Below the pieces are notes generated by a model. It was not told the DNA's origin. It made no database searches and saw only the letters and a list, made by a program, of their open reading frames with translations. DNA of 51,174 nucleotides from Sulfurovum sp. (GTDB lineage: Bacteria; Campylobacterota; Campylobacteria; Campylobacterales; Sulfurovaceae). Positions 16,781-45,029 of the stretch are shown here, in pieces (position 1 is the stretch's first letter; each line of letters begins with the position of its first letter). Location: positions 1 through 51,174 of the forward strand of contig JALSUP010000202.1 of the NCBI GenBank assembly GCA_027071315.1. Reading direction: 5' to 3'. A program made the translations under genes and the position numbers.

Positions 16781-16790
16781 AGTTTATTCT

Positions 16791-16866
16791 TTGGCAGCCT
16801 GGCGATCTGTGAGACAGACCCATAGCTTTCCGCTCTTTTTACCGGGGAGATAAAAAGATTGGCTTT
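16791..16866 (-). ncRNA. c-di-GMP-I (GEMM)-like riboswitch motif, orphan
   Basis: Read leftwards, the sequence contains GCGGAAAGCTATGGGTCTG and, after a short CTC loop, CAGATCGCCAGGCTGCC. This follows the 3' half of the GEMM consensus (GCAAAGCcacGGGuCU-loop-AGnnaGCCgGGuuGCC) closely in sequence and pairing. The 5' half is reduced: GCCAATC stands for GGCAAACC, then comes a 7-bp stem CTTTTTA/TAAAAAG with a 9-nt loop in place of the usual GNRA-capped stem. What follows leftwards is the antisense of the aminotransferase gene, so no gene is under its control here. It may be a stranded relic of a former leader, or its 3' gene was displaced by the aminotransferase. The match was made by eye. Confidence 0.4.
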
Positions 16867-16944
16867 ATCAGAAAACAATTAGTTTTTAAGTTTGTAGACT
16901 AAAACCGAAATATTGACTACTTGATAAAATCATATAATTTAAAC

Positions 16945-20143: not shown

Positions 20144-20161
20144 GGGCACCTCTAATAAGAA
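20144..20161 (+). repeat. 18-bp repeat, copy 1 (possible IS-end scar)
   Basis: GGGCACCTCTAATAAGAA directly follows the VapC-like stop codon and differs in one base from 23628-23645. It also resembles the first 15 bases of the terminal repeats of the miniature element at 44237-44512 (GGGCACATCTAATAA). No partner inverted copy is seen within this module. Confidence 0.55.
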
Positions 20162-42978: not shown

Positions 42979-44127
42979 TTAGTTGTACGGATTATTTTTA
43001 TCTTCCGCATTGATCGTTTTGATCTGTGCCGGTGTTACTACATCTTTTTTATCTTTTTTATCTTCTTTGACAAAAGCATTGGAAGTCTCTTTGAGATCAA
43101 AATTTTCAAACTTATCTTTATCTCTGGTCTCTTCTACTGCAGCTTTGGCAGCAGCTTCACCTTTAACATGACCTGCTTTAAGCGCTTTTTCTTCTGCCAC
43201 TCCGACACTGTCATGTAAGCCGGCATTGCCGACTTTTTCATTTCCCTGTGAAGGGTTTTTCAGTTGCACTTTTGTGATTCGTGTATGATGAACGATCTTT
43301 TTAAAATCTTCATTTATCGTATCATATAACTTTTCAACTTTGTTCTCACCCTTGATCTCTTTTTGGATCTTTTCTATACCGTCATTCAGTAATTTATACT
43401 CCGGATCATATTTTTTTGTATAACCAAGCAATGTAGCTCTTTTTAATTCTTCTTTCGCCGCATTCAGCAATTTTTGGGCATCCTCTTTTTGACTCTTATC
43501 CAGTTGGGAAGCTTCTATGATGAGATCTTGCGCTGTTAAAAGCGGGGTAGGCAAAACAATTTGACTGCTCACTAATGTACCAAACCCTTCCGCCAATGCA
43601 GTAAGTGCCGCTTTTTTATCACCTTTGTTCAATGCATCCAGCGCAGCTTTTGTTGATGCAGGGTAAAGTTTCATTGGGATAGCAATCACCGTAATATCCA
43701 ATTCATCTTTTAATGGGATCAACATTTCTATGGCTGTTTGTGTATCGTTTGCTTTGATGAGTTGTCTGCTAAGATCGAGTCTGGCTTTAATAGCGTCTGA
43801 AGACTCGGTAAAGCTGTATGCAGTAAGACTTTCTTCCAAAGGTATCAGGTCAAGTTTCGGGTCTGCTTTCAATGCGTTTTCAAAATTACTGCTTGCTGTC
43901 TGTAGCAGTTTTTTAGCTTCATCCGGTTTCCCTTCCTGAATGAGATGTGTCGCTTTAAAAGTTGCCTGAATTCCTTCAACCACCTCTTTAGGTGTTTTCT
44001 GCTGTTCTTTCATATGTGTATTGATCTGTTTTTCCATCAATGTTTTTGTAGGTGTTTTTGCCTGAATGGCAGTAGTGCTTAAAAGCAATCCGCAGGTGAG
44101 CGCTGAGAGTAACAATGTTTTTTTCAT
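42979..44127 (-). CDS. YfdX-family exported protein
   Basis: The protein has 382 residues with a signal peptide (MKKTLLLSALTCGLLLSTTAIQA). The mature part is helical, with ATHLIQEGKPDEAKKLLQTASSNFENALK, IPLEESLTAY, VIAIPMKLYPASTKAALDALNKGDKKAALTALA and LPTPLLTAQDLI, all features of YfdX domains, known from acid- and stress-induced enterobacterial proteins. The last 110 residues are a highly charged Lys/Asp/Glu tail not needed for the fold. An AAAGGACA ribosome-binding site precedes the ATG. Its 5' side borders the miniature element at 44237. Confidence 0.78.
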   Translation of the reverse strand: MKKTLLLSALTCGLLLSTTAIQAKTPTKTLMEKQINTHMKEQQKTPKEVVEGIQATFKATHLIQEGKPDEAKKLLQTASSNFENALKADPKLDLIPLEESLTAYSFTESSDAIKARLDLSRQLIKANDTQTAIEMLIPLKDELDITVIAIPMKLYPASTKAALDALNKGDKKAALTALAEGFGTLVSSQIVLPTPLLTAQDLIIEASQLDKSQKEDAQKLLNAAKEELKRATLLGYTKKYDPEYKLLNDGIEKIQKEIKGENKVEKLYDTINEDFKKIVHHTRITKVQLKNPSQGNEKVGNAGLHDSVGVAEEKALKAGHVKGEAAAKAAVEETRDKDKFENFDLKETSNAFVKEDKKDKKDVVTPAQIKTINAEDKNNPYN

Positions 44128-44236: not shown

Positions 44237-44512
44237 CATATGGGCACATCTAATAACCCTAGACGCTCATAATGAGTTTTGCAGATGTGAAATTTTGCAA
44301 GAGGCTTTCAAGTCCTAGCCAAAGCTAAGATGAAAGAAGCATCTTGTGAAAGATCGCGTCTGCAAAGCTCACCCTTTGGGCATTGCTAGCTTTGCTCTAT
44401 GCGGCGTTACACTTTTTTGACTTAGCTACGGCTAGGTCTTCAAAAGTGTGCCTTACCTAGAACAAAGCTAGTAATGTTATGAGCATCTAGGGTTATTAGA
44501 TGTACCCATATA
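44237..44512. mobile_element. Miniature inverted-repeat element with two internal foldbacks
   Basis: The ends (44237-44272 and 44477-44512) are 36-bp inverted repeats with three mismatches, starting near TGGGCACATCTAATAACCC and flanked by TA dinucleotides. Between them lie two large imperfect hairpins, 44274-44370 and 44381-44476, separated by ACCCTTTGGG. Each hairpin closes on the same tip, TAGC-N4-GCTA (44316-44327, N4 CAAA; 44423-44434, N4 TACG). No open reading frame is present. The whole folds as a three-stem cloverleaf. It fills most of the 421-bp gap between the YfdX-type gene and the rightward gene at 44550. Mobility is inferred from structure; only one full copy is in the window. Confidence 0.8.
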
Positions 44513-44549: not shown

Positions 44550-45029
44550 ATGTCAGATAAAGATGATATAAAAAAATATATAGAAAACAACCCTTACAGT
44601 CAAAAAAGTATGACAGCATTGATTGAGGAGTGTTATCGTGAAGCACTGTATGAATCTAAAAAAACAGGGCAGTCTGTTGAAAGTATGACGTATGAAATAC
44701 TTGAGGGAGTGGGAGAAGGCTCTCTTTTAAAACCAGAGTATGCCGAAGAGGTGTTGGAAAATATTTTAAATATTATCAGCGCTACCCTAGAAGAAAGTGC
44801 ACAAGAAAGTATTTACAGAAAAAAAAGAAAACTCTATTGGGCAAAAATGCAACTCTCTGAAACAATTGAGACAGAACAGTCTTATGTGAAAGAAGCCATA
44901 GAGGCATGCAGGGAATATGCCAAAGAGAAGTCTCTCAAGACATTGGAAGAGCAATTGCATCAATACGAATCAAAATTATCAAGGAACATCTATATTCTCG
45001 CAGAGAAAATAAAGTATAATGCAGAATAG
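44550..45029 (+). CDS. Cytoplasmic helical protein of unknown function
   Basis: The protein has 159 residues, with no signal peptide or membrane segment. It is almost all helix and acidic/basic, with likely coiled coil in the last 70 residues (LYWAKMQLSETIETEQSYVKEAIEACREYAKEK). I do not recognise a family. A strong AGGAGAAGG ribosome-binding site precedes the ATG, 37 bp after the miniature element, so the promoter may lie in or at the edge of that element. It is 15 bp upstream of the Crp/Fnr gene and probably cotranscribed. Confidence 0.6.
   Translation: MSDKDDIKKYIENNPYSQKSMTALIEECYREALYESKKTGQSVESMTYEILEGVGEGSLLKPEYAEEVLENILNIISATLEESAQESIYRKKRKLYWAKMQLSETIETEQSYVKEAIEACREYAKEKSLKTLEEQLHQYESKLSRNIYILAEKIKYNAE

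Follow-up and report, generated by a model that had tools for sequence, protein, structure and literature searches.

A 266-bp foldback sequence in the window, by which we mean the whole 51,174-nucleotide stretch of Sulfurovum sp. DNA analysed here, is a complete copy of a dispersed element that is well supported as a non-autonomous MITE with IS5-type ends. MITEs are commonly viewed as decaying transposon scraps. In this element two hairpins occupy the interior, and the fold of that core itself seems to be under selection; constancy of the fold across the order despite changing sequence and tips is what would be expected of a functional structured module that outlives its carriers. We consider it probable that the element is an IS5-type MITE that exchanges its tips, is moved in trans and contains a fold-conserved core recognised as a single-stranded nucleic acid.

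Anatomy and fold of the window copy

An initial annotation of the window had described an ordered foldback element at 44237-44512. Such an element is present and is far from a chance fold: its single-strand MFE is -151.8 kcal/mol, whereas 200 dinucleotide shuffles gave -69.2 +/- 5.0 kcal/mol and never reached so low a value (z -16.7). The element proper is 266 bp rather than the proposed 276 bp, because the ATAT at either outer end belongs to a 4-bp duplication of the target site (Table 1); the same bases had been included in the terminal inverted repeats, which exist but measure 31 bp rather than 36 bp. Two hairpins were found as described, with measured lengths of 99 and 96 nt in place of about 97 and 96 bp, and both apices have the form TAGC-N4-GCTA exactly as claimed. 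The CCC-TTT-GGG sequence is also there but is not a mere linker, since it folds into a mini-hairpin of its own. Specifically, the window copy reads as a 31-bp repeat, a 99-nt hairpin, the mini-hairpin, a 96-nt hairpin and a 31-bp repeat, with the type-2 hairpin coming first, and the stems, said to abut almost without gaps, leave no unpaired bases at all at the junction. The type-2 hairpin of this copy carries an internal loop at which most relatives have a tandem GA.

The element is flanked by a minus-strand YfdX-family gene (42979-44127) and by a gene to which no function is assigned (44550-45029), and both point away from it. Its position directly before such a gene is as stated in the initial annotation but incidental, as copies adjoin many different genes. 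When we looked for an empty site corresponding to the window copy, none of the 77 other genomes of the genus that were compared matched the neighbouring gene over its full length.

Table 1 Features of the element copy in the window.
Feature	Position	Strand	Basis or remark
Complete element, 266 bp	44242..44507	+	Boundaries from alignment of 98 copies and 4-bp target duplications
Left target-site duplication, ATAT	44238..44241	.	Duplications across copies
Right target-site duplication, ATAT	44508..44511	.	Duplications across copies
Left terminal inverted repeat	44242..44272	+	Type A tip GGGCACATCTAATAACCCTA, common to IS5-type elements
Right terminal inverted repeat	44477..44507	-	
Type-2 hairpin, 99 nt	44273..44371	+	Apex TAGC-CAAA-GCTA; best fold on + strand
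Apical motif of type-2 hairpin, CCTAGCCAAAGCTAAG	44314..44329	+	
Mini-hairpin CCC-TTT-GGG	44372..44380	.	Fourth arm of the junction, 3-bp stem
Type-1 hairpin, 96 nt	44381..44476	-	AAGGC/AACG internal loop; apex TAGC-CGTA-GCTA on - strand
Apical motif of type-1 hairpin, CCTAGCCGTAGCTAAG (- strand reading)	44421..44436	-	

Copies, target sites and genomic context

The suggestion that this is a repeated miniature element holds in its own genome, in the genus and in the order, the Campylobacterales, among whose sulfur-oxidising members the element is common. The host genome contains 13 near-complete copies together with several remnants that consist of tips only. Within the genus the element occurs in 35 of 61 sampled genomes, at up to more than 20 copies per genome, and in an order-wide sample any significant match, some matches being partial, was obtained in 69 of 399 genomes and 28 of 87 genera. 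The exact core pattern was found in MAGs labelled Sulfurovum, Sulfurimonas, Sulfurospirillum, Campylobacteraceae, Campylobacterales or Epsilonproteobacteria. Searches of viral contigs with the two-apex pattern gave no match, the element was not matched in phage records, and among plasmids a single record, from Sulfurovum mangrovi, matched in part.

Perfect 4-bp target duplications, 96% A or T, bound 56 of the 97 copies for which both flanks were available, as against a mean of 5.2 and a maximum of 15 when the flanks were permuted. Duplications of 2, 3, 5 or 6 bp were rare among these copies, and only two of eight copies with GAACCC tips had a perfect duplication. In one complete genome (G016; L025 and L137-L155) 20 copies share approximately 98.7% identity, and almost every one has a clean duplication that differs from the others, which indicates recent amplification.

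All 32 copies with both neighbours resolved are intergenic and none interrupts a long open reading frame. They lie between 16 divergent, 13 co-directional and 3 convergent gene pairs, as judged by simple ORF calling with uncurated starts, and the 13 co-directional placements divide 6 to 7 by element orientation. Such a distribution agrees with A/T-rich targets where genes start, and with orientation having no effect.

Tips and candidate transposases

Three tip variants, GGGCACCTCTAATAACCC, GGGNACCTCTAATAATAGGT and GAACCCTCTGAATAACC, occur in the genus. The initial annotation had proposed a search for transposase genes with the same ends, and IS5-family elements of 1.24-1.28 kb with matching tips do exist, the match extending over approximately 15-20 bp. 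Four of them (L107, L109, L111 and L130) have tips GAACCCTCTG; another of about 1.24 kb (L354), whose transposase frame is interrupted, has tips GGGCACCTCTAAAAA and the duplication TTAT; and the genome of the window itself holds an assembled IS5-family fragment bearing GGGCACCTCTAATAACCCTAT. Against the NCBIfam IS5 model NF033581 (cut-off 140 bits) the 336-aa protein of L111 scores 216.8 bits and the own-genome fragment 172 bits. The family thus shows the terminal inverted repeats, target duplications and dispersed non-coding copies by which MITEs are recognised, as well as autonomous elements with the same ends. An interior derived from the parent IS, a usual though not strictly required trait of MITEs, was not found; tips alone are shared, and by eye the IS and MITE sequences diverge beyond about 20 bp.

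Because IS5-family elements of the same genus and order share these tips, IS5-type transposases most likely mobilise the MITE in trans. The genome with the freshest burst (G016) gave no DDE_Tnp_1 (PF01609) or IS5_4 (NF033581) transposase at E 0.001, which counts against this view. On a tree of the core only, tip type switches 13 times; this tree is weak apart from its well-supported branches, which by themselves force at least two changes per type. The element appears, judging from this tree, to have swapped tips, which would let different IS enzymes carry it; this makes it a system in which transposase switching by a parasite can be tested.

Conservation of the fold across the order

At least seven further families of the order contain relatives of the element, with different stem sequences and several different tips. 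Partial matches fetched from those families mostly proved to be whole elements in which the stems, and often the tips, differed, apart from two chance matches inside genes (L322 and L323). The four-way junction of the relatives is built from a tip stem, a hairpin of about 98 nt, a mini-hairpin of 7-9 nt and a hairpin of about 100 nt, and in most of 25 diverged copies the junction has no gaps, the hairpins measure 95-103 nt and the mini-hairpin is either 7 or 9 nt long.

Covariation across copies, another check that had been proposed, revealed strong compensatory change in hairpin alignments made without a structural reference. For type 1 (24 sequences), 95.1% of cells are paired compared to 60.8% in shuffles, both sides have changed at 32 of 35 pairs, and the covariation score is 0.88 compared to 0.23. 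For type 2 (17 sequences) the corresponding values are 94.1% and 70.2%, 32 of 39 pairs, and 0.69 and 0.22. These figures are inflated by related rows; none of 500 shuffles attained any of the observed measures and every slid control was far lower. Relatedness alone cannot account for stems that are fully replaced from one family to another. An absence of further copies and of compensatory changes had been named as what would speak against the element, and both copies and compensatory changes were found; the idea that the fold is conserved beyond the needs of a plain MITE was borne out.

Certain motifs stay nearly invariant in the re-sequenced hairpins: type 1 has AAGGC facing AACG, type 2 an internal loop of tandem GA/AG, and either apex reads TAGC-CNNA-GCTA. 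These motifs can serve in a search for binding partners. No credible covariance-model match to the element was obtained in Rfam at gathering or relaxed thresholds, and we found no account of this family in Rfam or the searched open literature.

Some of the compensatory changes are supplied by arm-to-arm repair, because in two copies (L197, 7476-7574, and L173) the hairpin arms are now perfect palindromes, direct traces of correction of one arm by the other.

Strand preference and homology of the two hairpins

In the genus alignment a raw tally of G-T against A-C gave 549 to 72, which we discarded because consensus folding favours G-T. Each hairpin was instead compared with its own reverse complement by strand-swapped folding, together with symmetric-loop counts. 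The orientation with the CNNA apex is the more stable one in 30 of 34 type-1 hairpins (mean -5.7 kcal/mol) and in all 27 type-2 hairpins (mean -13.1 kcal/mol), and sites at which G-T exceeds A-C outnumber the opposite by 20 to 5 in type 1 and by 20 to 4 in type 2. For both types the preference flips on the reverse complement. The type-1 hairpin of the window copy (L001) is near neutral (+2.0) and is among the four exceptions. The terminal stem, used as a control, has no strand preference in the genus (p 0.38) and a mild opposite lean across diverged copies. Part of the wobble asymmetry could come from C-to-T mutation with a strand bias. Such a strand-resolved signature distinguishes an RNA or single-strand function from plain maintenance of a palindrome.

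Since the hairpins are inverted in the elements analysed, the preferences of the two types point to opposite strands; on either strand, the hairpin that folds well is the first one encountered when reading inward from its end. Covariance models of the two hairpins likewise match opposite strands, in the window (model R2 at 44272-44372, +, 96.3 bits; model R1 at 44477-44380, -, 95.5 bits) and at other loci. The type-1 model also detects the type-2 hairpin (E 2.7e-8), indicating that the two are homologous.

Explanations for the conserved core

Under the explanation that we favour, an IS5-type enzyme would act on the ends while a factor, of the cell or of the element, would recognise each hairpin as a single-stranded nucleic acid; the latter is the weakest step of the scheme, with RNA a slight first choice over single-stranded DNA as the recognised form. 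Transcripts would run into the element from both flanks, an insertion would thus act alike in both orientations, and recognition would allow insertions beside gene starts to be tolerated and the family to stay alive. More tentatively, the core may be an ancient module independent of any transposase, which has lasted throughout the order by taking over, again and again, the tips of whichever IS is at hand. Its dyad-symmetric, strand-specific hairpins, with protein- or ligand-binding internal loops, would then have a genuine activity, such as rendering insertions transparent to transcription arriving from either side or able to control it.

It is unlikely that the element is an ordinary MITE with a functionless core, in which undecayed palindromes are kept complementary by template switching between arms during replication. 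Typical MITEs are palindromic, A/T-rich and intergenic (PMC10969869), palindromised arms are directly visible in L197 and L173, and deletion derivatives persist; yet arm correction wipes out internal loops, whereas AAGGC/AACG, the tandem GA and the CNNA apex survive re-sequencing of the stems across families, G-T pairs recur at identical sites on one strand only, and the hairpins keep their lengths and the junction its gap-free form. An origin by repair or mutation only is less likely and does not explain the conserved loops and the recurrent wobble sites in re-sequenced stems. Movement as a folded single strand, one of the initial suggestions, would make the element a REPIN-like substrate of a RAYT-type Y1/HUH enzyme, its hairpins being recognised on the template of the lagging strand. 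REPINs are likewise inverted doublets of strand-specific hairpins, and Y1 genes are present in 58 of 78 genomes of the genus, but exact 4-bp duplications and IS5-type tips mark double-stranded cut-and-paste by a DDE enzyme. Y1 presence does not follow the element (28 of 35 genomes with it and 19 of 26 without; Fisher p = 0.55), and one genome with many copies (G020) has no Y1 gene, so we rejected a Y1/RAYT link and regard this mode of movement as quite improbable.

The initial annotation had also raised a structured RNA, that is, a single molecule comprising the entire cloverleaf, with one coding strand, and dispersed as a MITE. Extreme stability and massive covariation would suit it, but the arms are not all tuned to one strand, co-directional neighbours reveal no favoured orientation and Rfam has no match, making such an RNA very improbable; the inverted strand-specific hairpins argue against it and for a REPIN-like pair. 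We give least credence to the four-way junction being a recombination substrate, as also suggested initially, or a Holliday-junction substrate, with extruded cruciforms bound by a resolvase or nucleoid protein: the junction is conserved without gaps and the hairpin pair is dyad-symmetric, but a cruciform folds both strands together, so that a one-strand wobble preference in each hairpin is unexpected, and copies that have lost one arm persist.

Relation to known repeats

The element shares with IS5-family MITEs its matching terminal repeats, 4-bp A/T-rich duplications and non-coding, intergenic dispersal, whereas its interior is an independent conserved two-hairpin core rather than a shortened IS, with several tip types and many genera. 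Like Correia/NEMIS, ERIC and BOX-type repeats it is small, palindromic, intergenic, near gene starts and MITE-like; we know of no conserved four-way junction in those repeats. REPINs, for which a clover-like fold has been proposed, also combine two inverted homologous strand-specific hairpins with compensatory changes in one mobile unit (PMC3116915). Their hairpins are about 20 nt, compared to about 100 nt here, and the element differs further in its DDE-type tips and target duplications; by analogy the core would behave like an oversized REPIN, yet one in which the association with RAYT was not found. GTAG- and CGTC-tagged REP families, with stems of 6-13 and 8-9 bp, respectively, have been reported in a Sulfurovum strain (PMC3733652). 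These too are palindromic repeats of the same genus, but their stems are short and we identified no tag of such a kind in the element.

Derivatives and other sequences

Five copies (L202, L204, L234, L236 and L273) have lost the type-2 hairpin wholly or in its upper part and retain the tips and the type-1 hairpin. The type-2 hairpin is thus dispensable for the persistence of some copies, because copies without it keep intact tips; this sample was selected by the type-1 motif, so the converse loss would be invisible. In L264, L316 and L318 a second hairpin of the type-1 kind, with apex AGCTACTAGTAGCT, replaces the type-2 hairpin. Very short palindromes of two tips (L067, L072, L016 and L019; e.g. 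GGGCACCTCTAATAATAGGTGCCC), some of approximately 24-50 bp, look like deletions of the entire core. The flanks of L014 and L015 contain a different repeat with hairpins GCGACTTCAGTCGC ... GCGACTGAAGTCGC, which adjoins tips of the MITE family and is possibly another element with the same ends.

Elsewhere in the window, a lone tip without a partner at 20144-20158, GGGCACCTCTAATAA, is a probable remnant of the same family, and a c-di-GMP-I riboswitch aptamer lies at 16790-16873 on the minus strand, its 42.3 bits exceeding the gathering score.
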